Shown here one piece after another: positions 7,046 through 62,190 of a DNA stretch of 64,000 nt. This stretch comes from Aplectana chamaeleonis. Lineage: Eukaryota > Nematoda > Chromadorea > Rhabditida > Cosmocercidae. The translations under genes and the position numbers were made by a program. The DNA lies in the NCBI GenBank assembly GCA_029168955.1, contig JAPDOI010001824.1, positions 1 through 64,000 of the forward strand. The letters are read 5' to 3'. How positions within the stretch are numbered: the stretch's first letter is position 1; each line of letters begins with the position of its first letter. The notes under the pieces are model-generated. The model saw nothing but the letters and a program-made list of their open reading frames with translations, had not been told where the DNA came from and made no database searches.

Positions 7046-7069
7046 CTGCGCGGTAAAGGGAATGGAACA

Positions 7070-7262
7070 GTGTCAGCATTTCTTAAGAACTGGCACGTCA
7101 TGAGACGTTGAGCTGTGAAACGAGCTGGCGTGAAGGGAAATACCTGAGCATCACCATTGAGCGGTGCCACTTTGCTGGCTGTTGTGATGCAAACACCAGA
7201 ACCAGCAGGGTGGTACCTTAATATGCTCAGGTCGTCCCCTGCCGCCCTCTTCACAATCTGTA
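7070..7262. repeat. Dispersed repeat carrying the empty site of the 8911-9970 element
   Basis: 7095-7195 is the reverse complement of about 8783-8870 (GTGAAACGAGCTGGCGTGAA against its complement at 8845-8864). The following part, TTAATATGCTCAGGTCGTCC at 7218-7237, is the uninterrupted form of the two flanks of the element at 8911-9970. This makes it a paralogous empty site. Confidence 0.65.
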
Positions 7263-7429
7263 GCTTCGTAACTACCACCCCATGCAACTGCGTTGGATCA
7301 GGAAGAAGTTTGGAAGAAGAAAGTTTCTTTATGCACAATTTTGAAACTTTCGGTTGCCAAAATTTTAATCCTTTTGCAACCTCGACTGATAAATCTTGTG
7401 AGCCACTATGAGGCTCAGGGACAGCAGCA

Positions 7430-7645
7430 TTTTTACAAAACCTGTAACGATCAAAACCCACGGGTCTGCCCCCGGTCCATGGCACCCTTGCTCCTTACGA
7501 GACCTACATGGATTATGAATCCATGGTCGCGTGAGCATGATATGAAGCCATGGTCGCATGGGCGCCACCAATACGTGTCGGTCCCGCCAAGAACAGGGGT
7601 ACTGTAGATCGCGGGCAGGCCCACAGATTTTGACACGGGTGAGCA
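7430..7645. repeat. Imperfect palindrome, MITE-like
   Basis: The two ends are inverted copies: CAAAACCCACGGGTCTGCCC near 7452 pairs with GGGCAGGCCCACAGATTTTG near 7613. The centre carries inverted CATGG...CCATGG blocks around 7510-7560. No target duplication was identified and no protein is encoded. Confidence 0.5.
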
Positions 7646-7982
7646 GTGTCCGCCTCCCGCTGAAAAATCCACTGATAATCGGCGTCGACTTGGAAGCAAA
7701 TCGGCTAGTGCTGCTAACTTTCACAGCAATCGGCTTCTTAAATTTTCAGGACTTGCCAGAATGCATGTTACGTAAAGACCCCCATATTCGCCGTCGCGCG
7801 GCGCGGCTAAAGCCTCATCACGACGCGACTAGCAGGTGGATGTGTACTGTGACAAGCGCGCTTCATCGCACCGCGGCGTCCCACCCGAGCCGCACGACGG
7901 CGACTAGAGGTGTCTTTACGTAACATCGCCAGAATGTACAATTTCTAAATGGATGGTGAGGGAAAGGAGAGAGGGGTCGTTA

Positions 7983-8473
7983 TACTCTGTCCCAAACGAG
8001 ATGGCAAGCGAAGAGTCCAAACAAGCAGCGCTCCCTCTGCGTCTCTGACGTTTTTGGATTACGGCAAGACGTCGCGCACGCAAATCACGTCAGCGACACA
8101 GCATCTGTCTTTCCGTAATCCAAAAACAGAATCCACTTCCTGAAACACCCTACCTGCCACCTAAATAAAAGTATCTACACCAAGAGTAAGTATTACGGGC
8201 ATTCTCCGCGAAAACAACGCAAAAAATGATGAAGTATGCGGGAAAAAGAAATGATAAGGTGAAAAACTGGGTGAATTCAGTTATGGATTACAGTGAAAAA
8301 ATGCTGTGTCGCAAACTTGGTTTGCGTACGCGACGTCTTACCGTAATCCGAAAAAGCCAGAGACGCAGAGAGGGAGTTCAAAGAAGGAGTCCTTGTTATA
8401 CTCTGTCCCAAACGAGATGGCAAGCGAAGAGTTCTTTAGACTCTTCGCTTGCCATCTCGTTTGGGACAGAGTA
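7983..8473. mobile_element. Stowaway-like MITE, 33-bp perfect terminal inverted repeats, TA duplication
   Basis: The left end begins TACTCTGTCCCAAACGAGAT and the right end is its exact complement. Each is preceded or followed by TA (7981-7982 and 8474-8475). The TIR is identical over 33 bp (37 bp counting the flanks). A third copy of the end sits inside, in plus orientation at 8395-8431, so the right side folds into a perfect 37-bp hairpin with a 9-nt loop (8432-8440). Sub-terminal arms also pair (8028-8122 with 8281-8378). TIR start and TA target fit the Tc1/mariner-derived Stowaway type; no transposase is present. Confidence 0.75.
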
Positions 8474-8910
8474 TAACCAGGTTCTGCACAAGGCGTGCGC
8501 CGGCGATTTTCTCACAGACCCCGACCCGTCAGGAACATGACCAGGTCAAATTATCTGCGATTTTCTTAAACCCCCCCCCACGGTAGTCGAAGAGTTGAAG
8601 AAGATGGTTGGTGAGAATTCTGAGATAGGGTCGACAATAACCATCAATGAAATGGAGAGTTGGTGGTGTAAAGTGACTAGAAGACAGACACGGCTCAGGC
8701 AACTAGGTAGCTCAATGAAATCAGATGTATCGACGAAGGCACGCTGACGACTTCGATTCTAACATGACTATGAACACGAATCGGCATCACAACAGCCAGC
8801 AGAGTGGCACCGCCCAGTGGTGATGCTCAGGTAATTCCCTTCACGCCAGCTCGTTTCATAGCTCAGCGTCTCAAGACGTATCAGTTTTTAATGGCACCGT
8901 AATATGCTCA

Positions 8911-9970
8911 CAAGGGAAATGTTTAGAGTGGTAAACGCATCTGCCAAAACATTGGTATCGTTAGTATCTCTAGTGGCTCAATAGTAAAACTGCGCAGTAT
9001 CCAGCCCCGAGCTGCAGGTTCCAAGATGTTACAAGCTTAAAAAGTCGCCTTTTGTAACCTTCAAAAAGGGCATTGATCTTTCGAAAATTCGGAAACGGAC
9101 CCGATAAATGTGTTCAGCGCCCAAAATAACCCCCCTGAGCCAAATTTGGGTGAAGGCGCACTCTCCATACTTTGTCCAGACTGACAGCGTTTTGGCTTGT
9201 ACGGATTTTCGGTTGGTTATACCGATTAGAGGGCTCTGGAAGCGTTTTAGAAAAATGTTAAAGATTTGACTTAAAATTCTCCCAGGGAGATTTTTTGGGG
9301 CGCTGATCACGAATCTGTGGTTTATTCATCGATTTTTCAAAGTTTTCGGCTAATTTCGTTCAATGCTTCCCAACCGGGGAAAATTTCGACGGAAAAACGC
9401 CACTTTCGAGATTTTCGGAGTGCTACGGTAGATATTGCTCAAATTGTTCCTCTGTAGGTTATTTGGAGTGCTGAACACGAATCTGGAGTCCGTTTATCGA
9501 TTTTTTGCAAACTACGGTAGATTACGGTGGATATACGGTAGTTTGGTAAAAACCTCAGATTTTTCACAAAAATTGCATACGGGGGTTATTCGGGGTGGAG
9601 AATACGAATTTAACGTCCGTTTGTCGATTTCCAAAATACTGAGGTGGGTTTTGACCGCTAATTGACATGCTACCCAGCGTAACCTACAGTAAACCTCAAA
9701 ATTTCGACAAATGGACTGCAGATTCGTGTTCAGCACCCTAGATTACCCCTACATACAACTTTTGAGCTAAATCCGAAAATTTTTTTAAACTTCAAAAAAA
9801 ATGCCTAATGGGCACTCTTGCCTTTCCGCAAGCCTCAAAAAATTCTCATAACTTTTTTGAACCTGCAGCTCGGGGCGGGATACTGCGCATTTTTACTATT
9901 GAGCCAGAATAGATACTAACGATACTGGTCGTTTTCGCAGATGCGTTTACCACTCTAAACACTTACCTTG
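8911..9970. mobile_element. 1.06-kb non-autonomous element, about 100-bp TIRs, 3-bp TCA duplication
   Basis: Left and right 100 bp are inverted copies (GTTTAGAGTGGTAAACGCAT at 8930-8949 and its complement near 9943-9962; also the CCCCGAGCTGCAGGTTC block). TCA flanks both sides (8908-8910, 9971-9973), and the same flanking sequence without the element occurs at 7218-7237, which fixes the ends. Inside, a roughly 45-bp motif containing ATTCGTGTTCAGC recurs five times in changing orientation (about 9085, 9300, 9465, 9590, 9715). No transposase frame. Fragments recur at 39.5 kb, 41.3 kb and 43.9-44.3 kb. A 3-bp duplication recalls PIF/Harbinger, though TCA is not the usual target. Confidence 0.75.
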
Positions 9971-11807: not shown

Positions 11808-12197
11808 CTAGCTCATAGGCCCGGAGAGCTCATAGGGGATCCATTTTCCTTCCTTTTGAATCTTCCCCATTGCCTTCAATCGAATAGAAATTGCTTTTTG
11901 GGTGACGCCGAGAGATGCCGCGAGCTGTTCTTGCGTTTGAGCCGAATCTTGATCCAACAAAGCCTGAAGTTCTTCGTCTTCGAACTTTTTTGGCTGTCCT
12001 GGTCGATCTTTGTCCTTAACGTCAAAATCACCCGATTTGAAACGCTGAAACCATTCTTGGCAGGTTCTTATGGATGGAGCAGCATCCCCGTAAGCTTGGG
12101 CAAGCATTTGGTGCGCGTCAGTGGCTTTCTTCTTGAGATGAAAAAGGAAAAGGAGAGCTTCCCGCAAATGGCGTTTTTCCGGCACAAAAGTTGACAT
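11808..12197 (-). pseudogene. mariner transposase, N-terminal DNA-binding half only
   Basis: The 129-residue frame begins MSTFVPEKRHLREALLFLFH and contains CQEWFQRFKSGDFDVKDKDR and GQPKKFEDEELQALLDQD, followed by a second helix-turn-helix ending GKIQKEGKWIPYEL. These are the paired helix-turn-helix domains and the KDKDRPGQPKK linker of mariner (Mos1/Hsmar1-like) transposases; hookworms are known to carry such elements. A full transposase is about 345 aa. Here the whole DDD catalytic domain is missing after YEL, where a short duplicated string (CCTATGAGCT) precedes the stop. The start ATG follows TTTTAGTTTCAGAAT, which resembles a splice acceptor. A fragment that binds ends but cannot cut is the simplest reading. 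Confidence 0.8.
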
Positions 12198-12540
12198 ATT
12201 CTGAAACTAAAATAATACTTTTTTTATAAGGTACGTGAAGCAAGTTATATATCAATAGAAAGCTGATAATACAGTGAGCATTATAACATAAAATTCGTTA
12301 TATAAAAATAATTTTATTTTTTACAAAATATCAATAACAACAAAAACGCGGAAATTAACTTCTAGACCTAATAGAAATATACCTACCTCACACAACATAT
12401 AAAACTGAACCCGTGATAGACACAAAGAAAATCCTAGTAACTCCCTTTAGCATTTCCTAGAACATTCTAAGGAAATTATTAAACTGTACACTATGCTTTG
12501 ATCACGCAATCATATACACATAGAATCAAGACATACAGAC

Positions 12541-12674: not shown

Positions 12675-13138
12675 CGACGAACAAACGACCCGCTGGACAA
12701 AATGTTATTAAAGACAGTGTTCTCGATTAAAAGCTTCCCGTTTTTGACAGAAACCTATGTTTTGGTTTCTTCAAGAAAGTGAGGGAGAAAGAATGGCGAA
12801 AAACGCAAGGAAGTAGGCGAAAATCGCGTGAATCCGCCGACACAGTGGATCAGCCCATTGTCATCATGGACGAGACATTCACGCAGAGGATTAATAGACG
12901 ACGAGTTGGATATTCTTTCTATCGACAGATCTAACATCTAAATAGAATCATCATTTTTTTGCATCGAACACACCGAAATCAGGGGGGACGGCATGTGTAA
13001 TTGGTTTTAGAAGTTTTTTTTTCTATGGAAGTTCACGGTTTCGAGAGACTGGTGGTTGCTATCCTCCACGTCGCGAACTTACTAGCATAAAAGCATTGGA
13101 AATTGAGATACGATCCTTATCGTGAACACTGCCTTTAA

Positions 13139-13567
13139 AGGCACAGTCCAACCCAACGGGTGAAATTTGACACTATAGTCCGCCCACCTTGTATAGCAAC
13201 CCTGCAAAGCACGAGATCTTGATTCGATCAAAAAAGTGAGGAACCACAGGGAAAAATGCAGGCCCGCCCCAATACCCTAAGAGCATAATCAAGTGTCAAG
13301 CTCCGGATAGGGAACCGAAATCTTTGCAAACCTGAAAATTGGTTTGTGTGGCGATGCTCAAAGGCAAAATAAACGATAGCAGAGCTCTTGGAACCCTTTC
13401 CGGGGCGGTGTGCGCGGTTAGGCTTTTGGGCTATAGTGGGTGGAGCAGACTTTTTCCCAGTAATTTCTCACTTATTTGAGCGAATTGAGATCTCGCGCTT
13501 GCCAGTTTTGCTATTCACGGTGGGCGGACTGTAATATCGAATTTTACCCTGAGGTTGGACTGTGCCT
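13139..13567. mobile_element. TTAA element, family with ends AGGCACAGTCCAACC, inserted next to the end of another family
   Basis: Left end AGGCACAGTCCAACCC and right end complement AGGCACAGTCCAACCTCAGG, flanked by TTAA at 13135-13138 and 13568-13571. Relative to 61101-61557 it is in reverse orientation. The sequence just left of it, TTATCGTGAACACTGCCT, is the right end of a different family (complete at 38506 and 57249), so the two share one TTAA. Confidence 0.65.
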
Positions 13568-16224: not shown

Positions 16225-18367
16225 TTCCGACAACGCGTTTCTATTCACATCGGAGTACGGACTAAGAAGAAACTTTGCGACGCGGATTCTTTTGTCAAGT
16301 GCATCCAGGACGCTTCGAAAGAGGCACTCCCGGTTGTACAGCCTAAGAAGAAGTTCGCCTACGTCTCAGAAGAAACAACATCTACCTACAACAGAGTATG
16401 TGCTCTCCGAACTGCAGGAAACTTCGTGGAGGAGAAGCGTCTGAGGAGGAAGTTGCGTCGGCAGCTTCAAAGTGACCGCGAACGAGAGTGGACGTGTAGA
16501 GCTAAGGAGTTCGAGAAGGCTTGGGAGGAGAAGAATCCGAAGAAAGCCTACACGTTGCTGCGACAGTATAGCGGGAAGATGAAGAGATGTTCTCCTGTCT
16601 TGAACACTACCAATGGAGTTGCAGTTGGTGATGCGACGCTGCCAATATGGAAGGATTACTTCAGTTCACTACTGAATCGTCCAGCGCCATCAGTACCTGA
16701 GCTCCCGCATGTTCAGAGAGCACATTACGATGTCAGTGAGGAACCGCCGACTGAGTCTGAAGTTTTGTATTGTGTCCGGAAAATGAAGAATGGAAAGGCA
16801 GGTGGAGATGACAACATCACTGCTGAAATGTGGAAAGCTCCTCCTCCGCCTTGTAGTCGTGAAATGACCAACACCATCCGTGCCATATGGATGAGCGAAA
16901 GGATACCCGATTCGTGGAGACATGCGATCATCGTACCTTCTTCACAAAAAGCTATCCGTCACGGATCCTAAGAACTACAGAGGAATCTCTCTACTTCGTG
17001 TCATGTACAAGGTTTTAGAACGTATCATTCTCGAGCGACTTATCAAACATCGTGAAGGAACGACCAGAGATGAGCAAGCCGGTTTTCGACCTGGAAGATC
17101 GACCATCGACCAAGTGTTCGTCGTGAGAAGAGTAATTGAATCGTGGCAGCGGCATTCGAAGCCATTACAGCTTGCTTTTTTGGACTTTGAAGCCGCGTTC
17201 GACTCTCCTCATCGTGGTCGATTGCTCAATGCTCTGCGAGCAGATGGAGTCCCGGAAAAGTATGTTCGGTTAATCGAGGACATGAACAAAGGAACAACAG
17301 CAGCAGTTCGTACACCTGTCGGATTTACGTCAGCTTTCGAGGTGAAAACAGGAGTAAGGCAAGGAGCCGTTGCAGGACCTTTTCTTTTCAACTTCGCCGT
17401 TGATGACATCATGCGTAGAGTTGCAGAACAGTTTCCTGCGGATGTGATCCTAACACCATCAGGACGCTTCCTTGTCGACCTGGAGTACGCCGACGACATT
17501 GTGTTATTCGCTGAAAACAACGCAAAACTGCAAAGGATTGTGAACCTCGTTTCGAAGTATGCCGCAGCCTATGGACTTCGTCTTCGTCCCGACAAATGCA
17601 AGCTGATGTGGGTCTCTCAGAGGCCTTCAACTGGAGTTTGTGTGGACGGACAACGTATCGAACTGGTGGACGATTTCTGTTATTTGGGCTGTTTGCTGAA
17701 GAACGATGGTAGTTATGCAGCGGATATTCGACAACGATGTGCGAAAGCTACGTCTGCATTCAATTCTCTAACCAAGTGTTTGTGGTCTTCCACCATCGCC
17801 AAGGAACTCAAGTTGCGCGTCTACCTATCCGCCATTCGCCCTATCATGATGTACGGATCGGAGACGTGGGCAGCACCGGAAAACGCAGATGGAAAGGTTG
17901 GATTGCACGGAGAGGAAGCTTTTAGGCGTTTGTTTGGATATTTCTGCCTGCGTGTATGCCATAACGAAGACCTTAACAAGGAAATCGACGCAGTACATCA
18001 ACGCTTGACACGAGGGAGGTGCCAGCATCTCCTAACGTCATCTCAAGCAGCAATGGAAAGTCGACTTCGACTGCTCGGGCATATACTAAGAAGAACGCCG
18101 GATCGTCTCGTACAACACGCTTTAAAAATGCTTCCAAATCCTGTCTGGAAACGGCCACCTGGGCGTAGGCGAAAGTTCTGGACGGATGTGGTGAAAGAGG
18201 ATTTAAAGTCACTCGGCATCGAAAGACAGTTCAGGCGCGATGTTTCGTTTCGCAGGAAATGGAATAGTGACAGCTGGATGGAATGTGTTCAAATTGTGGC
18301 TGAAGACCGTGAAAAATGGACACGGCTGACTACTAGGACGGCACACCTCGGTGAAGATGCGGAATGA
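16225..18367 (+). pseudogene. RTE reverse transcriptase, copy 1, one frameshift
   Basis: The frame covers the linker, the RT palm and the C-terminal domain. RT landmarks: KMKNGKAGGDDNITAEM (about 16780), NYRGISLL, QAGFRPGRSTIDQVFVVRR, LAFLDFEAAFDSPHRGRLL (motif A, catalytic Asp intact), GVRQGAVAGPFLFNFAVDDI (motif B) and LEYADDIVLF (motif C, intact). A single extra T in CCTTCTTCAC near 16940, absent from copy 2, breaks the frame. The C-terminal end (RPPGRRRKFWTDVVKEDLKS) is the RTE-typical tail. A patch at 17880-17925 differs from copy 2 by compensating indels. The lost endonuclease means it could not move by itself. Confidence 0.85.
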
Positions 18368-19448: not shown

Positions 19449-22400
19449 TTACGGTCTTCCTCTGAAATGGCCTTGATCCTGGCGTTTGAGAGGAGGACCA
19501 CCTCCTGGATGAGGTGGGACCGGTCTTTTATGAGAGGGAGCACCGGGCCTAACAGCCTGTGGCCGTCGGTTGTCTCCGTGTCCACTGTTTGATGACGCCT
19601 GACCCTGAAGTCTCAGATCACAAACTATAAAATAATGATCAATCAAACAAATATAAGAATGAAGGCTAACCAACCTCTCCCTCAGAAGGAGGAGGAGAGG
19701 GCTTTCGCGCCCTTTCCATAGCAGCGAATTCGCTGTTAAACTCGCTCATGTTAGGAGTTTCTGAATACAGTAACGTGAATTCCCCAGACTTCATGAATTC
19801 TCCCTGACGACCGCACGACAGGTTCAACATTCCCTGAAAACATGGGGAGAATGGCGAAAGTAGAAAGTCAAGATCATAATGACGAACTGACGCACCCTAT
19901 AAACATTCGTGAACCCATTTTTGATTTTTATTATGTCACCAGGTTCGTACAGATCCTGCACCTCAGCATTCATGATGGTGAACATTATTGAGCCAGAAGG
20001 ATCAGCGATCCGCATACTAATCACCATATTGCCGCTGGCGAGTCGACGAGGCGGATCTTAACACTTAGATGGTAGACAAAGAACTGTGCGCTTAGATAAT
20101 CAAATATGAGGAAATATACGGCTAAACTGTTAATCCATTCACGACCACGCCCATTTTGGGGTGACAGCATATTTGGACCACGCACAGTATTGCGCCACCA
20201 TAAACTCCGCAGCAAAACTATATGACATACCCCGATTTCCGCGGATCTGAATTTTACCTGGGTCGGGCAGAAAAACTGCAAATGCCAATCGAAGCTACAC
20301 CTTCGAAAACTCCCGGGTACGAATTTCCTATGAGGCCGGCACCCAGGGTCAAGCGGGGTTGTGAAATTTCGCAACGGAGGAGGAGGGGGGCGTCGCAGAA
20401 TTTTTGGCCCGAAATTAAAGATAAGGGGATCGCAAAATTTTTGAGCCAAAAATTAAAAACTCTGGAAGTGTTTACGTTAGAAATCACTTCCCAGTACCAA
20501 AAAATCTCAACATTTCTTGGCAAAAAAAGTAACCAAAAATTACACTTTGTGGGGGGTCGCAAAAGTTCCAAATTCTGGAAAAACATCTGATGGCGGGAGG
20601 GGGGGGGTCGCTCTGATTTCGGAAAATTACACAACGCCCCGCTTGACCCTGCCGGCACCGGAAAAAGTCGAAATTGACCGATGCTAAACTATATAACATA
20701 GCAGATGAATCTTGGGAATTTCCTGAATCTTGTAGATTTGGAATGAGAAAAATGACGGTTTCAAGATGAAAATCTATTTTACAAGAGAATGTTTCTGCTC
20801 CTTATCTTCCAAAATGCCTCGTGGAGCCATATTGTCGGAATGCGAAAGAGCTCAGATTGATCTCCCAAGCCTTATGGGCCTCAGTATTCAATCTATGAAT
20901 CAACGAATTAGACGAACTCGAGGCTGCATTGCTCTACACGTTGAAGACCAATTAGGCTGAGCAAGCGAGAGGAACGGGTAATCGTGAGGCTGGCATCAAA
21001 TTCCATGATTTCCGCTAGCGCGATCGAAAGAGCCTTGGACCTGCGTGTGGACAAATTCACAATTCTGCGAACCATTCATGAGTTCCAGAACGTTGCCCGC
21101 GAACGAATGAGAACTGCTCCACATCCTATGGACAACCAAAAGGAATCGAAGCTCCAATTCGCCCGAGTGAACATGCAAATCGATGGGGAAAAGGTGGTTC
21201 CTCTCTTCAGTCTTGATGTTAAACGACCTCGTAGGAAAATAACTTCTTAGATTGTGTTCTCGGACGAGAAAAAGTTCAACTTAGACGGGCCTGATGGATT
21301 CAACTCGTACTGCGAAAGGACCCACTCACGTTCCTGAAGAGGAACTTCGGAGGAGGTTTGATGAGTTGGGCGGCATTCAGCTGGTACGGCAAGCTAGACA
21401 TTGCCTTCATACCTTGCAGCATGAACTCTGCCGATAACCAGAACGTGCTAAGAGATCACCTGTCTTTTTTAAGACGCCATCGTCTTGTATTCCAGCAGGA
21501 AAATGCGTCCATTCATGTGAGCCGGTCGACTCTGGGTCGGTTCCAAGCCAATCATGTCGAAATACTTGAATAGCCCGACTGTTCGCCGGATTTCAACCCG
21601 ATGGAAAACTTATGGGGTATACATGCGCGACGCATGTACGCACATGTCAAGCAGTACCCGTAGCTCAACTAAAGGAGATCGCCGAGTTTTAACCTTGACG
21701 CGGCGACAAAAATGTTTTCAAACATTATCGTCGCGGCGTCGGTTGCAGCTCGCTGGCAGCGTTCAAGTCCATGTGAGTTTAAGTCGCAGCGTCAAAACAC
21801 CCCCCCCCCCTCGTCGCCCTTCACGCTGCGTCTGTCGCCCCGTCGGCGAATGTAATCGATATTGCATCACTCATCGCTGCGAGCAACGCCGCGACTTGAA
21901 CTCTATCCTCCCCGTAAGGGAAGCCGTTATCGCCGAGTGGGTCGCAATTGAAGGTGGCGTCCTTACGAACTTAGTAAACATTATGCCAAACAGATTATTC
22001 GACGTTAACCTGCGCCAGGGTAACTCCACTGACTACTGAATCCATGCTACTGATTGTTATAATAAACGGATTAGTACAGGGCCTGTAAAATTGAAGCTTT
22101 GGCCGTATCCTCTGCAACGTCATATAGTCTTACATCCGTCAATTTCGACACTTTCCGGTTCGCATATTCTTATGAAAATTTGTAGCCAGGGATTTTGAAG
22201 GTAGCCGCGTCGATTGACTTTTGCAGTTTTCCTGCTTAGCCCAGGCGAAATCCAGAACCGCAAAAATCGAGGTATGTCACATAGTTTTGCCACACAGTCT
22301 GTATCGCGTACCGCCGGTGGAATGCTTTTGACTGTTTAGCATGCCATTACAAAGTTTTTTTTTGTCTACATGTATGCTGTGGCACGATAGGGACATCAAA

Positions 22401-28677: not shown

Positions 28678-31600
28678 GGGGGTGTGTATACAAGTCTGTT
28701 GGTACCTGCTCGTTGGTGCCCCTGCTTCTACTGAACCCAGCAGACGTTTGAGTGTACACAGGGAACGTTCGAGCGATATAGCGTGCACAACTATATCGCG
28801 AAAGTATCCCGCACATTGCATAAAGGTGTCGCCGTCCGGCACACTAAGGCCTCTGGTCCATAACACCTTAGGATCCGTACCTAGGGAGCCATGGAGTCTT
28901 TGGCCACAAGCCACAATTTCGCCACCCTGAACTGTCGATCGCTGTCGAGTGATATCCAAAAAACTGCGCTATCCAGACTTCTGAGCTATTTCCATGCACC
29001 GTTTGCTGCTTTGCAGGAAACCCGCCTCAGGATAGACCCGTCATCAGCGTCGGAGAGTACACCATCTACTGCGGTAACGCTGACGATAGGAGAGTGGGAG
29101 GCTGTGCAATAGCTGTAAGGGAAGGATTTCAATGGTATGGTCAAGGAGTTCGGCTCAACGTCGTGTCGGAATGCATTCGTACGACTGCGGGATCACAGAG
29201 GATTCAATCTGTGGATAGTGAGTGCTCATGCGCCCACTGAAACCGCCGAAGACAATTCGAAGGATGCGTTTTATGAGGAACTCAATACGTTGCTGGCCAG
29301 GATACCTTGTCAACATGCTGTTGTCGTGGGGATTGACGCAAATGCGAAGATGGGACTTGATCAGGAATCCGAAGTACTCGGTAAATGGTTCTACCCAGTG
29401 GAGCAAACATCGGACAATGGCTACCGCCTTGTCGACTTTTGTGAACGCAGTGGTCTGATTATTGCATCGACATTCAAGAGGAATCATCCCCGCCATCAGC
29501 TTACGTGGCAGGGACCAACCCAGCTATCTCCAGAAGAGCAGCGGAAGCGGAAGATGACAACTTTGAAACTACAGCTTGACTATGTCCTGACGAGGAATAT
29601 TCCAGTATCGGACATTCGAAGATCTAGAACTGTGTGGGATGTCGCATTCGATTCGGATCACCGTCCTGTTCTGTTGAACTTCACTGCGAGGATTCATAAG
29701 AGGAAGCGAGGGGCTCAGCCTCTCCAGAGGATTGACATGACAAGTCTCAGAGATGAAGAGTGCCAGAGGAATTTCCGACAACGCGTTTCTATTCACATCG
29801 GAGTACGGACTAAGAAGAAACTTTGCGACGCGGATTCTTTTTGTCAAATGCATCCAGGACGCTTCGAAAGAGGCACTCCCGGTTGTACAGCCTAAGAAGA
29901 AGTTCGCCTACGTCTCAGAAGAAACAACATCTACCTACAACAGAGTATGTGCTCTCCGAACTGCAGGAAACTTCGTGGAGGAGAAGCGTCTGAGGAGGAA
30001 GTTGCGTCGGCAGCTTCAAAGTGACCGCGAACGAGTGGACGTGTAGAGCTAAGGAGTTCGAGAAGGCTTGGGAGGAGAAGAATCCGAGGAAAGCCTACAC
30101 GTTGCTGCGACAGTATAGCGGGAAGATGAAGAGATGTTCTCCTGTCTTGAACACTACCAATGGAGTTGCAGTTGGTGATGCGACGCTGCCAATATGGAAG
30201 GATTACTTCAGTTCACTACTGAATCGTCCAGCGCCATCAGTACCTGAGCTCCCGCATGTTCAGAGAGCACATTACGATGTCAGTGAGGAACCGCCGGCTG
30301 AGTCTGAAGTTTTGGATTGTGTCCGGAAAATGAAGAATGGAAAGGCAGGTGGAGATGACAACATCACTCCTGAAATGCTGAAAGCTCTTCCTCCGTCTGG
30401 GATTCGTGAAATGACCAACACCATCCGTGCCATATGGATGAGCGAAAGGATACCCGATTCGTGGAGACATGCGATCTTCGTACCTCTTCACAAGAAGCTA
30501 TCCGTCACGGATCCTAAGAACTACAGAGGAATCTCTACTTCGTGTCATGTACAAGGTTTTTAGAACGTATCATTCTCGAGCGACTTATCAAACATCGTGA
30601 AGGAACGACCAGAGATGAGCAAGCCGGTTTTCGACCTGGAAGATCGACCATCGACCAAGTGTTCGTCGTGAGAAGAGTAATTGAATCGTGGCAGCGGTTT
30701 TCGAAGCCATTACAGCTTGCTTTTTTGGACTTTGAAGCCGCGTCCGACTCTCCTCATCGTGATCGATTGCTCAATGCTCTGCGAGCAGATGGAGTCCCGG
30801 AAAAGTATGTTCGGTTAGTCGAGGACATGAACAAAGGAACAACAGCAGCAGTTCGTACACCCGTCGGATTTACGTCAGCATTCGAGGTGAAAACAGGAGT
30901 AAGGCAAGGAGCCGTTGCAGGACCTTTTCTTTCCAACTTCGCCGTTGATGACATCATGCGTGGAGTTGCAGAACAGTTTCCTGCGGATGTGATCCTAACA
31001 CCATCAGGACGCTCCCTTGTCGACCTGGAGTACGCCGACGACATTGTGTTATTCGCTGAAAACAACGCAAAACTGCAAAGGATTGTGAACCTCGTTTCGG
31101 AGTATGCCGCAGCCTATGGACTTCGTCTTCGTCCCGACAAATGCAAGCAGATGTGGGTCTCTCAGAGGCCTTCAACGGGAGTTTGTGTGGACGGACAACG
31201 TATCGAACTGGTGGACGATTTCTGTTATTTGGGCTGTTTGCTGAAGAGCGATGGTAGTTATGCAGCGGATATCCGACAACGATGTGCGAAAGCTACGTCT
31301 GCATTTAATTCTCTAACCAAGTGTTTGTGGTCTACCACCATCGCGAAGGAAGTCAAGTTGCGCGTCTACCTATCCGCTTTTCGCCCTATCATGATGTACG
31401 GATCGGAGACGTGGGCAGCACCGAAAACGCAGATGGAAAGGTTGGATTGCACGGAGAGGAAGCTTTTTAGGCGTTTGCTTGGATATTTCTGGCCGCGTGT
31501 ATGCCATAACGAAGACCTTTACAAGGAAATCGACGCAGTACATAAACGCTTGACACGAGGGAGGTGCCAGCATCTCCTAAAGCCATCTCAAGCAGCAATG

Positions 31601-31952
31601 GAAAGTCGACTTCGACTGCTCGGGCATATACTAAGAAGAACGCCGGATCGTCTCGTACAACACGCTTTGAGAATGCTTCCGAATCCTGTCTGGAAACGGC
31701 CACCTGGGCGTAGGCGAAAGTTCTGGACGGATGTGGTTAAAGAGGATTTGAAGTCACTCGGCATCGAAAGACAGTTCAGGCGCGATGTTTCGTTTCGCAG
31801 GAAATGGAATAGTGACAGCTGGATGGAATGTGTTCAAATTGTGGCTGAAGACCGTGAAAAATGGACACGGCTGACTACTAGGACGGCACACCTCGGTGAA
31901 GATGCGGAATGACCGCGTCAGGCGAAAGCCAACCGATTAAGTCAAGTAAGTC
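28678..31952 (+). mobile_element. Full-length RTE-type LINE, copy 2, 12-bp target duplication
   Basis: The 3275-bp element is bounded by identical 12-mers AGAACCTATAAG (28666-28677 and 31953-31964). The 5' end starts GGGGGGTGTGTATACAAG and the 3' end is the short repeat AAGTCAAGTAAGTC, no poly(A), as in RTE elements. It codes for endonuclease then RT in one ORF with no ORF1. Differences from copy 1 are few. Confidence 0.9.
28891..31912 (+). pseudogene. RTE endonuclease-reverse transcriptase, copy 2, four frame breaks
   Basis: Starts MESLATSHNFATLNCRSLSS (endonuclease Asn motif), then AALQETRL (catalytic Glu), VSAHAPTETAED, VVVGIDANAKMG, LDYVLTRNIP and FDSDHRPVLLNF (Asp-His pair). RT landmarks are KMKNGKAGGDDNITPEML, QAGFRPGRSTIDQVF, LAFLDFEAASDSPHRDRLL (catalytic Asp kept; the usual Phe is Ser), GVRQGAVAGPFLSNFAVDDI and LEYADDIVLF. 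The C-terminal Cys/Arg-rich tail ends HLGEDAE. Frame breaks: between 29050 and 29140, an extra T at about 29850, a 2-bp loss at about 30033 (GAACGAGTGG against GAACGAGAGTGG in copy 1), and indels at 30530-30560. Close to intact but not functional. Confidence 0.85.
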
Positions 31953-37707: not shown

Positions 37708-38245
37708 AGGCAGTAGTCACGATGAGAACCGTTATCGAAAAAACTACAGAAATCAGTTAAGATAAAAAACAGCTGAAAACTATAAAGGTGGCGGGGTGAA
37801 AAACGAGCTAGAATTAGAGTTTCTAGGGCCCAAAGAAGCCAGTTAGTGCACACGTGCCCAGCGCCGACCCTAAAGATCGCAGTCTCATGCCGAGCAGTCA
37901 AAAATCATCAACATTCAGAGGAAGAAATAAATGCAAATTTACCGAATAAAAGCAGTTGAACAATGAAAGCAAGCACTTCAGTGAATGTTTTTGACTAGAT
38001 GAGTCAATGTTCATTGATTGAAATTCAATTTCAAGCCAGCTGACGTTTTGGTATTAGAGATCATCGATGCCGATGATGTGGTTTGGGCTCGTCCACCATC
38101 AAAATACAAAGAAAGTTCAGGCTTCAAATTTGGACCAAAACAGTGGTTTTTTCGAGATTTTTTTGTACAGGTCCTACTACTCGAAACCCAAAAAAGGGTT
38201 CAGAGAGAAAAAGAAGAAAAGCATATTTGATTGCGACCACTGCCT
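37708..38245. mobile_element. TTAA element, AGGCAGTAGTCACGATG family, intact
   Basis: Ends AGGCAGTAGTCACGATGAG and, as complement, AGGCAGTGGTCGCAATCAAA; TTAA at 37704-37707 and 38246-38249. It is the uninterrupted version of the element split by the RTE at 28678-31952. 538 bp, no coding. Confidence 0.75.
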
Positions 38246-52725: not shown

Positions 52726-53195
52726 CGCTTCAAGACACAGAACACCCAGAACTTTTTTCGTTTTTATTTTCGTCTTAGAGAGAGTAGCATGCTGATCACA
52801 GTGGTATCTCTAAAATCGTCCAAGACCCCGTGTGAACAGAGTTATGGCATTCCAAAGATGCCTACATATATTATGAGGGTGAAAAAATGGTGGACGAGTT
52901 GACTCAGGCCTGTAATTCTTTTCATGCGCAATCGTCGCGCGAGGGCGAGCTAGGATAAAGAGACAGTAAGGCAATAGACTGAGGAACGACGATTTGTTGA
53001 GAATTCATCAATCCATCTAGCCGTTATCGAGTTCAGAAATTCGGAAGGGGGTGTGGCCCGTCGCGGTGAGAGGAGGAGGACGGGCCTGTGGTGGTCGCTT
53101 ATATCTCGCTTATTTGAAGGAATTGAGGTCTAGCTTTTGACGCATGTTATACAGGAAGGGTCTACTAACAAGAAAATAAAAATCACAAAATTTAC

Positions 53196-53646
53196 AGGTA
53201 CAATACACCCTCAGACATGAATTTTGTGATCTTCATTTGTTTGTGTAGTAGACCACTCCTGTATAACACGTGCAAAGTGCGAGATCCCGATTCCTCCAAA
53301 TAAGGGAGATATGAGCCAACACCACAGGCCCGACCCCCATCCTGATTTTCGACCTCGATATCGGCTGGATGGATGGATGAATTTTAACCGAGCCTATGTT
53401 ATTCACTCCATTAATGATTTTTGTCCTTCTCCTGACTCGCTCTCACGCAACGGCTGCGAATGAAAAGAAATACAAGCCTGAGACAATTAGTCCATCAATT
53501 CTCCGCCCTTAAATAATAGGTTTTTTTGAGGAGCTATAACTCCTTTCGTAAGGGTTCTTGAACGATTCCTAAGCTGTGATCAGCGTGTGATTTTCTCCGA
53601 TATATACATGAAAACAGGAAAATAATTCTGTTTGTGTTCTGTGCCT
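53196..53646. mobile_element. TTAA element, ACAGTACACCCTCAG family, first of a chain
   Basis: Starts AGGTACAATACACCCTCAGA after TTAC (53192-53195) and ends TTCTGTGCCT before TTAA (53647-53650). To its left, 52730-53191 is an inverted, end-clipped copy of the same family (GTTATACAGGAAGGGTCTAC against GTAGACCACTCCTGTATAAC). Confidence 0.65.
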
Positions 53647-53650
53647 TTAA

Positions 53651-54139
53651 AGGCACAGTACACCCTCAGACATGAATTTTGTGATCTTCATTTGATTGTG
53701 TAGGAGACCCCTCGTGTATAACACGTGCCAAATAAGAGATCTCAATTCCTCCAAATAAGCGAGATATAAGCGACCACCACAGGCCCGACCCCCTTCGCTC
53801 GCCACCACAGGCCCGCCCCCTCCCTACCAGATTTACGGACTCGATAGAGGCTAAACGAATGGATGAATTCTCAACATGTCGTCGTTCTTCAGTCCATTTT
53901 CGGTCTCTCTCCTCATCCAGTTTTCCTCGCGTTCAGAGATTGCGAATGAAGAGAAATACAGGCCTGAGACAACTCGTCCCCGAAATTTTCGTCCTCAAAA
54001 TGCAGGCACTTTCAAGGAGCCATATCTCTGTTTTATAGGGGGTCTTGGACGATTTTAGAGATACAATTGTGATCAGAGAGTGGCTCCCTCCGAAATAAGC
54101 ATGGGTTCTGAAAAATATTTTTTTGGGTGTCCTGTGCCT
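53651..54139. mobile_element. TTAA element, same family, second of the chain
   Basis: Starts AGGCACAGTACACCCTCAGA at the shared TTAA (53647-53650) and ends GTCCTGTGCCT before TTAC (54140-54143). Direct repeat of the preceding element, with an extra GGCCCGCCCCCTCCC-like expansion at 53785-53825. Confidence 0.7.
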
Positions 54140-54143
54140 TTAC

Positions 54144-54711
54144 AGGTAGTTGCCACGATAAAAATCGTTTTCGAGTTTTCACCAGAAAACGAAGTTTCAG
54201 TTCCTGACAGCTTGATCAGTCAACAAAGAATATTGGGAAACGCTGCGTAACAGCTAAAATTAGCTCTTCTTCTTCTTGGAAGCCACATCTCAGCGGTGGA
54301 CGAGTTGCATGGGCCTAAAATAGACACTGAAGGCAATTAACACAAATTTTCAATGCGAACTGATTTTAATTTTAGTGAGACAGGAGTACGAGAGATGAAA
54401 CAAGAGAGCAGAGTAGCTACATAAAACAAGGAAATTCGCTAAAGTGTCTGAGCAGAACAGCGTGCGCGGATGCGCCCCAACGCTGAAACTCAGCCGCACT
54501 CGCGCTCCAATGCTAACGGAGAAGTGTGCCAGACCCATCCACGCTAAAGTCGGCCGTGAGTGGAAAGGGGCTTCGCGAGCGGATCTCTGAGTCAATTTAA
54601 TTTCTTTCGGGCTCGTTTTTTTCGTTCTACACCCCTGTCGCTTTAGAGAGACCTTGGTCTTTCGATTTCCTGCGAAAAACTGAAGGCGAAATTTATAGCG
54701 GACACTATCTT
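54144..54711. mobile_element. TTAA element of a third family, third of the chain
   Basis: Starts AGGTAGTTGCCACGATAAAA and ends, as complement, AGATAGTGTCCGCTATAAAT before TTAA (54712-54715). Its ends differ from the two preceding elements; it joins them only through the target tetranucleotide. Confidence 0.6.
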
Positions 54712-54715
54712 TAAA

Positions 54716-57244
54716 GACAGCAGATACGCTCGAAAAAGTTGTTGAGATAACTACGCTACTTGGGTTCTATGGCCCCTAGTATGTAGAACGCTCACGACGA
54801 TGGAAGCGTCAAAAACGAATGAAAACTACTAAATTTGAGTCGAAAATTTTCGTCAGCCACGCCCATGAGCTTTCAACCCCGCCCCCTCAATATACGAATA
54901 CGGTCACTTCGGCCGGTTTTTAAAGCTTCCAACGAGGAGAGCGTTCTAGTACAGGCTAAAAGAGTCTATTGGATTCGCTATCCCAACCGTTTTATCGTTA
55001 ATATTAGCTTTTTCAGCCGCTCGGGCAAAACTCTTCCGATTTTACCCCATATTAAAAACAGCCGTTATTCCTGTATTTGCATGCAGTTTTCGTCGGTTTT
55101 TTCGTTAGTTTCCCATACTACAAGCTTCAAACCTTCGATTTAAGACATAAAATCGATACCATTCTGAGCGCATCTGCTGGTTCTAAATGGGACATGTGAC
55201 ATGCTGCGAACCCTATGTTTTAGGTTTTCCATAGTTTTTTGGAGTTCGAAGGGCGCACTCCTCCGTGTTTGGTAAAAAAACGAAATAGCTGGCCATAAAG
55301 GTTGGTCGGGAAACGAATAATTGAGTCTGGTATCCATAAATCACGCAAGTGACACAATTATGCTCTCAAGTACGAGATCCAGGCATCTGAGTATGCTTTG
55401 GATCAACCAGAGGTGTTTTTGATAAATCTTATTATCTCTTGAAATAAGCGACTAAACTTGTTGTTGATATTTCCGGGAGAAAGCTAATTTCCGGGAATCG
55501 CCGATACTCAATAGTTTCCTCGGAAAGCCTCTAAGGTTCCACAGCGCTCTTCAGCACTCATCAAAAACTACTCCCAACCACTTCAAAACGCTGTTGAGGT
55601 ATACACAAAAAAGCGCGAGAAATCTCTCAATCGACTCCAGTTTGGCTACTTTGCAAAATCGTGGCGGATTACACATTCCATAAGCTTGCAAATTTCGCTT
55701 CATCGCCTATTTCAACTAGCCTTGAAGATTTACTAAATTAAAAAAAAAAACTTATTGTACTTTATTACAAGAACACTGCACCTGCACCCATGCGTTCAAG
55801 ACTTCCCCAAAACGCTCTTAATAATTAGAAACCCGATACACCTCAATAAAATTGTCTTCTAATGACGTTGTCTCACATTATTCATTACACTTGCACACTC
55901 TTGAACGGTGTGGATCGGAGTGGGACCCTCACTCTCGAGCAGAAACAGTGGAACACCGGCTAAGCCTTTACTTTCAAACTACATGTTCCACACGTCTCAT
56001 CGCTCTACGCGAAAGTCGATTGCGTGCAAAATTTCAAGAATCGTCTCTAGCATGTTTGAAGATTTACAGATTGATCTCAATCAGTCGTGCTTATACCAGT
56101 ATTTGATCCGCTTCAAACCCTTCTTTCGCCACGTAATGGGCAAGGCGATCGGCTTCTTTTCGAGACTTCAATCCACACGCGATCATTGGAGGACATTACG
56201 ATCCACATTCCGCATAACTGCTAATCCTCATCCTTCATCCAGAAAGCGCTAGGATATGTAGTTTAGACTAGCGCGCTGGTTTTTTGTTTCCATCTCCGAG
56301 CTTCTCACCTTCGTTTGTTGGAGAGACGTCTTCATTCGATAGGAATGTGATCCTTCAGCGAACGCCTCCGCTTTTGACGGTTTCACTTTTATGTTATGAT
56401 TTGATTCTCTGCGAAACCCGGCAATTTTTCCAAATCCCGTTCGGAATGTTATGCTATATAAAAATATATTATTAAACTCGGATATGAATCGATTATTAGT
56501 TAAACAAATACTTGAACGTTTAAATATTCGATCACTTAAAAATCTTACTCTCATAATTCTCCGAGGCGCCTGACAGTTCGACTCGTTTTCCCAAATTTTC
56601 TGGCCACTGCTGTTGCTGTCCGGCGAACTGAATGAGCCTGGACAGCAACAGAAGATGCTAGATCGTTGGGAGAATGAGCAGAAGACTCAGAAGGCTCCGA
56701 AACCTGTGCGGTGTGACATGGGGCTGAGAATCGGCAGAGAATCTTTTGCTTTTTTCTCCAGAAAATTTCTCAGAGTGCTTGTTTTTTTAAATAATCATTG
56801 AACGTATAAAACAATTAATTTCATTGAAAGCAATACCCTGCGAGGATACCCACGCTAGAAATGATGAAAACTAGGAGTGTCCCTTCCCGAAACCTAGATT
56901 TCAAGAAGTCACAAGCTCAAAACGGTAGGTGGACGCCAGAAATTAAATTTCTATTCACCTATACTTCGATTCGGTGGTTCCCTTGGGCCCTGAACGCAAA
57001 TTTTTAGTTCGTTTTTATTTTGTCAAATGATTGTGGTAAGTAACGTATTGTGTACAACATCTTTTTTTTTACCGTGATGCACCGAAATCGTTCGAAAACA
57101 GAACAAACTACATATTTGTGTATGGAACTCCAGGTGTTCTCTCGGACAAAGTCAATACTGAGGAAAATCTTTCCTGCGTTTCATTTATAGCTTTTAGCTT
57201 GCGGATTTTTGGGATCTACGCTCGAGGAAGGTGATATCGACGTT
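54716..57244. other. No gene recognised
   Basis: Another TTAA-type end (AGACAGCAGATACGCTCG) starts at 54716, but its partner was not identified. 56975-57030 holds a weak copy of the recurrent GAACGC-AAATTTTTAG motif of the 8911 family. No supported exon. Confidence 0.3.
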
Positions 57245-57248
57245 TTGA

Positions 57249-57738
57249 AGGCGGTGCTCACGATGATTTTCGTCCCCGAGTTTTTCACATAAAACAATGC
57301 GTTGGCCTCCAAGTGATACCAAAATTACGGAGAAACGGCGAGAAACGCATTAGAACGTCGTATTTCAGTGACATTATTCTGTAACATGGACTGACTAGTT
57401 GCCCAGTTTTATGAATATGTTCTCAGGTGTTGTCACCGGTGGTAAATTGGGTCAGTCGAAAATAGAGGAATGTTTTATTCAAAGCAGGATTGGTTAGGGC
57501 CCTAAGGGAAGAACGGCGCAATATAGAGTAGAGAATTGCAAAGGATGGGTTCACAAAGGATTTCATTGTCACAACAAACACTTCCTGTGATACTCAAGAG
57601 GCGGGGTGATACTTAGGGGTTTCGTGAACTTCTGGTGCGTTTTACTCAATTTCTACGTCATTTTAGTTCTATCCGGGGCCACCACCTAATCAATATTGCG
57701 AATGATCTCAAAATTAAAGATTATCGTGAAAACTGCCT
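57249..57738. mobile_element. TTAA element, AGGCAGTGTTCACG family, copy 2
   Basis: Left AGGCGGTGCTCACGATGATT after TTGA (57245-57248), right complement AGGCAGTTTTCACGATAATC before TTAA (57739-57742). Matches 38506-38988 along its length. Confidence 0.75.
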
Positions 57739-57742
57739 TTAA

Positions 57743-58310
57743 AGGCATCGTTCGCGATGAAATTAACTTCTGAGTTTTCACTATATTTAGGAAGCTTTAG
57801 TACCGTACACAACAGCCACATTCAAAAAACCGCTAAAAAGTTACTGAAAACTGCTTTTCCGAACCCCTGTTTCTTCGTTTTCAGACCCCATTCAACCAAT
57901 CGACGCATGAGAGTGGAAGAGTTGATCGTTACGAATCACTGTGTTGACCCGTGATCTCCCGATCAGATCCCCTTCATCTTTCTTTCAGCTGATTTTCAAG
58001 GGAGAAAAGGTTGCCCGATATGTGCAAAAAAGGCATCCATGACGTAATCATATGATCTATTTCATCAACTTCCACGCATTTTTACTATATCACTTTTTAA
58101 TCAATTCCTTTCGTTTCCCATTAGGTGAACGGACGTAACAGATGATCGACCCAAAGGCCAACCCCCAAACCCAGAAAGACGTTTTCAACTAGAGATAACT
58201 CCATTTTGGTTGGATTTTAAGACTACAGACTTCGTAAATGACCTTATAAAGGCCCACTTGAACGATTTAACACAAAAACAGGAATTCGGTTTTTAGCGCG
58301 CACGATGCCT
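57743..58310. mobile_element. TTAA element, AGGCATCGTTCGCG family, chained between two other families
   Basis: Left AGGCATCGTTCGCGATGAAA, right complement AGGCATCGTGCGCGCTAAAA; TTAA at 57739-57742 (shared with the left neighbour) and 58311-58314 (shared with the right neighbour). Related to 60637-61096. Confidence 0.75.
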
Positions 58311-58314
58311 TTAA

Positions 58315-58650
58315 AGGCAGTGGTCACGATGAAAAACGTTATCGAGATCAAAAACAGCTGAGTTTCTAGGGGCCAAAGAAGCTAGTTCGTGCACACGTGC
58401 ACAGGGATGACGAAACAGATCGCAGTCTCATGCCGAGCAGTCAAAAATCATCGACATTCAGAGGACGAAATAAATGCAAATTTAACGAATAAAAACAGTT
58501 CATTGATTGACATTCAATTTCAAGGTAGCTGATGTTCTTGATATAAGAGGTCATCGATGCCGATGATGTAGATTCGAATTTGGCCCAAAACAGTGGTTTT
58601 TCCGCGATTTTTTCTTATAGGTCCTACTACTCGAGACCCAGGAAAGGAAC
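58315..58650. mobile_element. TTAA element, AGGCAGTGGTCACG family, right end lost
   Basis: Starts AGGCAGTGGTCACGATGAAA at the shared TTAA and follows 37708-38190 (GTGCACACGTGCACAGGG, ATCGCAGTCTCATGCCGAGC, CAATTTCAAGGTAGCTGATG), ending within the CCTACTACTCGAGACCCAGG block. Confidence 0.65.
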
Positions 58651-58779
58651 CAGTGGCATGTGCATGTCTGCAAGGTTTGTAGGTATGTTTCTACTCCACT
58701 TCGCTCACTTCTGACAGCACTAAAATGGTTCTTTTTGTTAGGCGTGAATAAACTGGCATCTAGATACGTATTCTCTGTT

Positions 58780-58930
58780 TCCGAGTGAAATTTTTTTACC
58801 GTTCTTCGCGTGCGTCTGCGCGCGTACGCAGTGCCTTCTTCCCACACTTCCTCTCTGTCTGTACCCTCGCTCCGCACAAGCGCGCGAGGGAACAGAGTGA
58901 ATTTGGCTTGGAACCAGAGTATAACTTCTA
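58780..58930. repeat. Dispersed repeat, inverted relative of 10225-10380
   Basis: CGTGCGTCTGCGCGCGTACG and GAGGGAACAGAGTGAATTTG match the reverse complement of 10225-10380. Confidence 0.55.
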
Positions 58931-59024
58931 AGATTTCTGAATATTCGAGTACCGCAACTTCTCTTGAAGATGTACATGTATTTTGATTATCTAGACCTCT
59001 TTTTAAATGTACTCCAAATAAAGG

Positions 59025-59682
59025 ATGTGCGCCTATTTTTTGGCTTTATTTTTGCTCGGAATTCTCATAGCGGAGATTTTTATCACGAAACTCTTAAATT
59101 CGCCACCAGTATCGAGAAAAGTCAGCTATTCAAGTCCGACTGAGGCATCGTTCACGCTCGCTAATACATATTATCGCCCTTTTCTAAGCCGTGAACCCAT
59201 TTTATATTCTCAATTACCAATCCCTAGCCTATTTTGAAATGTTCTGCTAGTAGGGATTATAACTAGATAATTTCTCTAATTTTCAATTAGTTGGGCTACT
59301 CGAAAAATCATGCTGCTCGCATTTTTTCAGAGAGTCCGAAGGTACCGCTATTGAGTTTTGGGTTCTTACAGAGGACCGAAATGATCCAAAGGAATTTCTT
59401 GCTGATTTGAAAAAAATTTCACATTTCTCGTTTTTGACAAAATCAATGTTTTCTACGCTTTTCCAAAGCGCACCCATACCGCTAGACTTACAATCGTGGA
59501 CAAACTGTAAGGCAGGCGGTACAATAAAACAACCTCTTGCTTATCTACTTAGACAGACAACTTCCGCAGTGTACATACTCCACCACCTCAACATGAAACG
59601 ATGTGAGTCCACTGCCACCTTTTTTGTAAACTTGAATACCTGTGGATGTGGTGGTAATGCCTCCCTAAAACCCTTGGCGTAA
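59025..59682 (+). CDS. Candidate exons of an unrecognised membrane or secreted protein
   Basis: An ATG at 59025 begins MCAYFLALFLLGILIAEIFI, a signal-anchor-like segment, then SPTEASFTLANTYYRPFLSR. A second stretch follows a good acceptor (CGCATTTTTTCAG, about 59328) and reads EFWVLTEDRNDPKEFLADL and TKSMFSTLFQSAPIPLDLQS, with possible donors GTAAGG at 59508 and GTGAGT at 59602. The composition is protein-like, but I could not join the two stretches in phase through any visible donor, so the model is incomplete. No family is recognised. Confidence 0.25.
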
Positions 59683-60636: not shown

Positions 60637-61096
60637 AGGCATCGTTCGCGCTGAAAATCAATTTTTATTTTTCAGGCTCAATTTCATGATTGAGCCAGGT
60701 AGACCACACTGGTAAACTTTGGCGCGTTAAAAACGTTGGACAATGAGGTTGGAAGGCGCCAAAGATGAAGATCCGCCACCAATTCTCACCAGTCATCTAG
60801 CACTTTTTCCAACAATGTTGGTGCGAGCGTAAGACAACATGAAAAATAGTTACGGCACGAACTCCACATGCAGAAAAACTCCGAAAATGACAGTGACGAG
60901 GCCTCCAGAAGCAGAAAAACTTCAAAAAAGATTTTGGCGCGAAATTCAAATTCGTATTTACATTGTGTTCCGATTGACTTTTCTTCACAAATAAAAGTTT
61001 TTCATGGGCCCCCTTCGACATTTTCGTTCACTAGAGAGGCCAAGCTACACGAAAACATGAAAAAATAATATTCGGTTTTCTGCGCGTACGATGCCT
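60637..61096. mobile_element. TTAA element, AGGCATCGTTCGCG family, copy 2
   Basis: Left AGGCATCGTTCGCGCTGAAA after TTAA (60633-60636), right complement AGGCATCGTACGCGCAGAAA before TTAA (61097-61100), which is shared with the next element. Confidence 0.75.
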
Positions 61097-61100
61097 TTAA

Positions 61101-61557
61101 AGACACAGTCCAACCTCGAAAACGATTTTTCGCTTTTCTGCCTATCTTGGAAAAAATTTCACGCTGATCACAATGGTGTTTTCAAAATCGCTCAGAACTT
61201 AATACGAACGGAGTTATGGCTCATCAAATATTCCGATTTTGAATTCCGTTGTCTCGAGCCTGTATTTGCTCGTTGTTCGCAGCCATCGTTTTGTAGCAGG
61301 CCACAATATAAAGCCAGACCGAAAACAAATTGAAGAACATGGGTTTTGAATGAAATCGTTCGCGCGTCTCTTCCCTATTGAGGTCGGAAACCTGGCGGTG
61401 GGCGTTACCCATTTTTTCTTTAAAGGGGGCGCGGCCAACTTTTTCCTAGCTTTTTCTCGCTTATTTGAGTGAATTGAGATTTCGCGCTTGGCAGGGTTGC
61501 TATAGACGGCGACCAGACCAAAATATCAAAAATTACCCCTGAGGTTGGACTGTGCCT
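61101..61557 (+). mobile_element. TTAA element, AGGCACAGTCCAACC family, intact copy
   Basis: Left AGACACAGTCCAACCTCG, right complement AGGCACAGTCCAACCTCAGG; TTAA at 61097-61100 and 61558-61561. It is the most complete copy of the family in the window (others at 13139, 32580, 33275). Confidence 0.75.
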
Positions 61558-61894: not shown

Positions 61895-62190
61895 ATTCCG
61901 AATTTCCGACTTTTCGGCTATTTTTGGGTTTCGCACTTTTTCGAGTATCCGACTTTCCCTTTATACTCGGATTTTTAAATTTTTCGGATATCCGACTTCT
62001 CGACTTCAGTCGTATATCGCACTTTTTCGGATTTCCGCCATTTCGACACTATAGTCTCTTACTGCACTTTTTCGGAAATCCGACTTTCGGAATACAGTCG
62101 AATTTGGGACTTTTCGACTATCGTCGAAAAAATCACTTTTTCGAAAATTCGAGTTTTCGAATGCAAAGTCTACTTTTTTATCCGACTATG
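61895..62190 (+). repeat. Minisatellite of TTTTTCGGATATCCGACTTT-like units
   Basis: CACTTTTTCG recurs at about 61937, 62030, 62085 and 62139, alternating with TCCGACTTT and a TATAGTCG- or CAGTCG-like spacer. Unit length is roughly 40-55 bp with much variation. The block is a run of TTTTCGGA words and explains the open frame across it. Confidence 0.65.

Follow-up and report, generated by a model that had tools for sequence, protein, structure and literature searches.

Nested and clustered MITEs in plants were reportedly described by Jiang and Wessler in 2001, as cited in work on the carrot DcSto elements. The carrot elements themselves, which are Stowaway MITEs, show independent insertions into the same position and into other MITEs, as found here, and have been discussed with the idea of a 'safe haven'. 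They differ in their TA target (TTA for a Tourist-like guest) and in small samples, whereas the present analysis concerns TTAA and draws on genome-wide rates and internal controls (PMC3695323). The CMITEs of corals, which are piggyBac/TTAA MITEs, likewise duplicate TTAA and form tandem arrays; according to the passages cited, the copies within these arrays resemble one another closely and are attributed to replication slippage, whereas mostly different families adjoin here (PMC2872659). In the PIF/Harbinger MITE mPing, the target preference reaches past the duplicated bases, a feature shared with our elements, but it is a 9-bp preference around a 3-bp target, compared with mainly the +1 base next to TTAA in our data (PMC2836001, as described in part of that source). 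Insertion directly beside an existing end, at the element's own inverted repeats, is described in the cited part of the work on IS30 and resembles the arrangement studied here; IS30 differs in that it is bacterial, moves by copy-out-paste-in and truly prefers ends, a preference that our data do not require (PMC9333248). The T2-MITEs of Xenopus, of the Kolobok group, share with our elements the TTAA duplication, termini starting with AG and a short, non-coding, high-copy form, and the passages on T2-MITEs in the two sources cited make no mention of different families chained at one TTAA (PMC6004289, PMC9587614). A literature search over titles and the beginnings of abstracts returned no report of this exact pattern of chains with shared TTAA. 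The present analysis contributes a measurement at genome scale with internal controls, together with a strong CTTAAG preference.

The DNA analysed, hereafter the window, covers the opening 64 kb of contig C1007, from an assembly of 1.04 Gb in 2,087 contigs. The protein matches of a retrotransposon frame in it place the source near Necator americanus, as a nematode whose genome is large. The window contains a chain of three TTAA elements, the last ending at about 58647, with one TTAA at each junction:

57249..57738, plus strand: Element 1, a non-coding MITE of the 484-bp family (A484) with AGGCAGTGTTCACGAT-type ends
57739..57742, unstranded: TTAA shared by elements 1 and 2, read as GCCT-TTAA-AGGC within GCCTTTAAAGGC
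57743..58310, plus strand: Element 2, 568 bp, with AGGCATCGTTCGCG-type matching inverted ends and TTAA on either side
58311..58314, unstranded: TTAA shared by elements 2 and 3, within GCCTTTAAAGGC
58315..58647, plus strand: Element 3, of a 538-548 bp family with AGGCAGTGGTC ends; its right end is lost and it carries internal deletions

Direct reading of 57739-57742 and 58311-58314 confirmed the initial annotation's claim that TTAA elements abut here at single shared sites. Its description of the three elements as unrelated held for the interiors, among which blastn (E<1e-3) returned no mutual match, and failed for the ends, which share a common layout, AGGC being followed in most cases by ..TTC.CGAT or variants of it. 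Element 1 belongs to a family of 484-490 bp; of the 40 candidates scored out of 5,211, 39 are further long matches that are 87-90% identical to it. Its own left end reads AGGCGGTGCTCACGAT, the family end being AGGCAGTGTTCACGAT, and its left flank is TTGA, a decayed TTAA. Element 3 aligns piecewise to complete copies at L006, L119, L122 and window positions 37708-38245. No stop-to-stop frame of at least 90 aa overlaps 57249-58310, and a minus-strand frame (58551-59045) overlaps the tail of Element 3.

Judged by their ends and target, the elements fit Kolobok-superfamily MITEs and may be classed as such. According to the cited passage, Kolobok elements duplicate TTAA, carry 5'-RR...YY-3' termini and have nematodes among their hosts (PMC9587614). 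Target duplication and termini were assessed on eight A484 copies found by similarity alone. TTAA is duplicated at 13 of their 16 borders (the exceptions being TTGA, TCAA and TAAA), and all eight copies start with AGGC and end with GCCT, consistent with 5'-RR...YY-3'. The terminal motif given for piggyBac in the cited passage, CC[C/T]T (PMC2872659), differs from the AGGC with which A484 begins in 8/8 copies. The T2-MITE motif AGGRR, taken from a passage of PMC6004289, differs as well, the ends here being AGGC and mostly then A. The other families came from AGGC-based searches, and the listing of 79 candidate elements, mostly 390-630 bp long and including some composites or chance pairs, required TTAA. 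As is characteristic of MITEs, the elements are short and non-coding, carry inverted ends and occur in very many copies, with 37,855 ends of one type, the common 16-base A end (end types A to H are labels coined in the present analysis). Two pairs of A ends, with spacings of 2.9 and 3.7 kb, were considered as the limits of autonomous copies and rejected, since by eye the DNA between them held no transposase-like frame in the parts covered (all but about 0.6 kb of the longer one).

Three further chains lie in the window:

12712..13567, plus strand: second chain, elements 12712-13134 and 13139-13567 with a shared TTAA at 13135-13138
52733..55182, unstranded: third chain of about five elements (52733-53191, 53196-53646, 53651-54139, 54144-54710 and 54715-55182), with junction tetramers TTAC, TTAA, TTAC and TTAA
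60637..61557, plus strand: fourth chain, elements 60637-61096 and 61101-61557 with a shared TTAA at 61097-61100

The third chain is more decayed than that at 57249-58647 and contains three members of one family, one of them inverted; the element at 52733-53191 is inverted and has lost its inner end. The same-family neighbours starting at 53196 and 53651 are 69% identical, which makes separate insertions likelier than slippage. Over the whole window, there are 6 exact-TTAA junctions among 26 recognised ends. When 13 elements were placed at random on 241 TTAA sites (3,000 runs per model), the mean was 0.6 junctions under uniform choice and 0.9 under the +1 base rule described below, and at least 6 junctions arose in 0 of 3,000 simulations under each model. 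The window was picked for its chain, and the genome-wide count is therefore the fair test.

Across the 1.04 Gb assembly, the palindrome GCCTTTAAAGGC occurs 15,501 times, versus 140 for the reversed control. The end sequence GCCTTTAA is found at 217,155 sites on both strands of the whole assembly (reversed control, 74,163). GCCT precedes 4,889 of the 37,855 A ends (12.9%), and GCC followed by another base precedes only 404 (1.07%); on C1, two of the four cases of the latter kind are decayed element ends. Among 77 consecutive A ends on C1, a shared TTAA is seen at 14; the partner is intact in 11 of these and decayed in 3. Seven of these 77 came from the listing of perfect junctions and were scored as shared without re-reading, and a wider end library would add L048, giving 15/77. 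Uniform choice among TTAA sites would yield about 2.2% shared borders, assuming some 98,000 intact-end copies (half of what remains of the 217,155 sites once the roughly 20,000 expected from composition are removed) and about 4.4 million TTAA sites. The latter figure is taken from pooled densities (254 sites in the 64-kb window and 284 in 50 kb made up of five 10-kb stretches), the density at A loci being lower. If the reversed-pattern control (74,163) is subtracted instead, the ends number about 143,000, which lowers the uniform expectation and raises the uncorrected fraction of ends lying in junctions (31,002/143,000). Uneven chromosomal density as a cause of sharing is not supported, the ends being distributed nearly evenly along 1.3 Mb of C1 (91 sites, after removal of 9 in a 36-bp-spaced array). 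That array of GCCTTTAA (G000:C1:1259842-1260381), with spacings in multiples of about 36 bp, inflates the apparent end count and is probably a satellite.

The target preference was read from the flanks of 63 isolated A insertions, among which those of L083 and L084 are identical. At the first position outward of TTAA, 28 insertions have G, 21 have A, 7 have C and 7 have T; the background composition, from 1,614 half-sites, is 17% G, 35% A, 24% C and 24% T. This +1 base is the only strong signal in the flanks (chi2 37, 3 df): G is enriched (44% vs 17%), C and T are avoided (halved) and A is neutral, so that C-TTAA-G would be the best context and G-TTAA-C one of the poorest. Positions 3-5 and 7 carry less pronounced signals (chi2 7.6-9.6). 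A G-rich outward preference, suggested by a first sample of 25 flanks, was discarded as a full explanation, only the +1 base remaining strong with 63. The initial annotation had proposed CTTTAAAG as the preferred context, and this sequence does occur 7 times in the window where 2 are expected. Six of the seven sites are themselves element junctions (13133, 53645, 54709, 57737, 58309 and 61095), and the 63 isolated insertions show no such preference, the four-base weight of AGGC being 0.87 of the average; the proposal was abandoned.

TTAA sites inside elements provide built-in controls. A484 has two internal CTTAAG sites, at consensus positions 342 and 361, each occupied in about one-sixth of copies: an AGGC-ended element interrupts 458 of 2,742 (16.7%) at one and 388 of 2,158 (18.0%) at the other. 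A 487-bp family with these same ends carries a GTTAAC site, where 15 of 2,304 copies (0.65%) are interrupted. The flanks predict a CTTAAG/GTTAAC occupancy ratio of 31 (95% 7-217); the observed ratios are 23 and 25, with the GTTAAC denominator of 2,304 cut by 225 according to the reversed-pattern control. For the first of the CTTAAG sites, the guests in its first 20 interrupted copies were read, and the other two sites are represented by counts alone. All 20 hold an element end at most three mismatches from a known type, and the guests form 17 groups at >90% identity. One nest was encountered twice, at L121 and L132, with the same element in the same internal site and 99-100% identity of both guest and host, indicating that nests do get copied or duplicated. 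Two further guest pairs among the 20 may or may not be copies of the same nest. The family of Element 3 was set aside as an additional internal control, TTAA being present in only part of its copies.

We then compared borders with these internal sites. One insertion rate was fitted to the three internal sites and the same rule was applied to borders with a bootstrap over flanks, A being assumed to be the older partner in half of the A junctions. The predicted share of A borders is 8.2% (95% 4.7-15.1) against 12.9% observed, a ratio of 1.6 (95% 0.86-2.8), and the observed sharing thus requires no extra border attraction. The initial annotation had viewed the borders as an insertion hotspot; sharing within the range predicted from internal sites makes a special hotspot unnecessary. 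Strong attraction, of 5-7 fold over the uniform model, is likewise not needed once the internal sites are counted. A calibrated mean-field model yields 6,807-9,780 junctions versus the 15,501 observed. Copied nests would overstate the internal rate by up to about 15%, raising the border ratio to about 1.85, and borders may be favoured by a factor of up to about three. The 50 junctions listed on C1 include 7 pairs one element length apart (double junctions), and 5-7 are expected for independent borders, as estimated from genome-wide shares; the chains are not obviously self-accelerating.

Taken together, we consider it probable (about 0.78) that the chains are independent insertions governed by copy number and the +1 base preference, with no special border hotspot. 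The structure of the chains, the diversity of the sampled pairs, the genome-wide counts, the base preference and the agreement with internal occupancy are direct observations. The alternative of end-directed targeting would have a transposase bound to a resident inverted repeat recruit an incoming element to the adjacent TTAA, which would turn borders into a true hotspot that propagates itself. IS30 offers a precedent (PMC9333248, in the part cited), and border sharing stands at 1.6 times the calibrated prediction, or about 1.85 times with copied nests discounted. Borders are also occupied more than other TTAA sites within 1.5 kb of A ends (14/77 vs about 9 events over about 160 sites; Fisher p 0.004), a comparison made before base-context correction and with the events grouped by hand. 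Set against this, the 95% range of the ratio (0.86-2.77) takes in 1, insertions are more frequent at internal CTTAAG sites well away from any end than at borders, and double junctions occur at about the frequency of independent borders. We regard such targeting as unlikely, while giving it slightly more weight relative to independent insertion, since a single event may have been copied to yield several of the internal interruptions. A milder form, with a modest (about 1.5-2.5 fold) cross-family attraction to resident ends on top of the base-context rule, through which chains would grow by themselves, is also rather doubtful. If true, it would represent end-directed targeting in a eukaryotic TTAA superfamily at genome scale.

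In two other explanations, neighbouring elements would have travelled together. In composite elements, pairs or triples would move as units and the junction would be copied rather than re-created, as a constant pair in constant order would reveal. The nest present at both L121 and L132 speaks for this, since it shows that nests are copied or duplicated. No constant pair was seen in the junctions read, and different families do use the border TTAA, as had been proposed from the window. The 15 junctions read on C1, with end types assigned by eye, comprise many pairs, the commonest accounting for 3. On C2, the partners in the 20 A junctions listed were by best match 12 A, 4 D, 2 E, 1 B and 1 G, each at most 4 mismatches in 16 from a known end type, the first four of these letters being fixed by the search. 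A-with-A junctions number five (10 ends among the first 100 A-shared ends listed), somewhat below the approximately 16 per 100 ends expected from random pairing (4,889/31,002). With partners and order varying among the C1 and C2 junctions, a single composite element was rejected; composites as the general cause are refuted in the junction samples read and are very improbable as an account of the chains. Sticky-end concatemers, in which two excised elements would join by their TTAA overhangs and insert together through the outer ends, would lead one to expect random partners and single TTAA junctions, as independent insertion does. They would demand that one transposase pair unlike outer ends, and in the calibrated model single insertions by themselves would yield about half of the junctions or more. 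Moreover, the chain at 52733-55182 includes a pair of same-family elements that have diverged unequally from the same relative (72% vs 80%). Concatemers are accordingly highly unlikely.

Under independent insertion, the elements would be non-autonomous, TTAA-specific MITEs, most likely mobilised by a Kolobok-type transposase that inserts at TTAA and duplicates it. This enzyme would favour G and then A at +1 on each side. Each insertion would leave two border TTAA sites whose neighbour on the element side is A, which makes them targets of average quality. The genome's TTAA sites, about 4.4 million in number and, according to the fit, effectively available to between a quarter and a half, would then have taken up about 100,000 intact-end copies. 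Later insertions would often use a border TTAA and give rise to X-TTAA-Y chains of independent families. Parts of this scheme are inferences: which element arrived first, what transposase moved them and how many copies are left once chance matches are subtracted. By calculation, an insertion replaces one site of mean target weight 2.5 with two borders of summed weight 3.0, so that targets need not run out. Self-propagation, which the initial annotation had suggested, survives in the form of this weak renewal, and its border hotspot is not required. Insertion without target depletion may help explain the very high copy number.

TTAA transposons serve as gene vehicles and are shapers of animal genomes, and here the bases just outside TTAA alter occupancy about 25-fold. 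Such measurements can draw on natural insertions in their tens of thousands in this genome, with target sites within elements acting as controls. The results also counsel caution, as striking chains with shared sites need not imply a hotspot.

Searches of the window against a plasmid collection gave no match, and Rfam and tRNA scans of it found nothing. At 61896-62156, TTTCGGATTTCCGACTTT-type direct repeats recur at intervals of about 43 nt, and locus L051 contains a similar repeat with long repetitive open frames (EKSNIRKFRNP). By eye, 11808-12206 (minus strand) and 20945-21573 resemble fragments of mariner-type and Tc1-type transposases. Two related reverse transcriptase frames of non-LTR retrotransposons are located at 16895-18367 and 30518-31912; the best-scoring protein matches of the former are from Necator americanus, at 69% identity.
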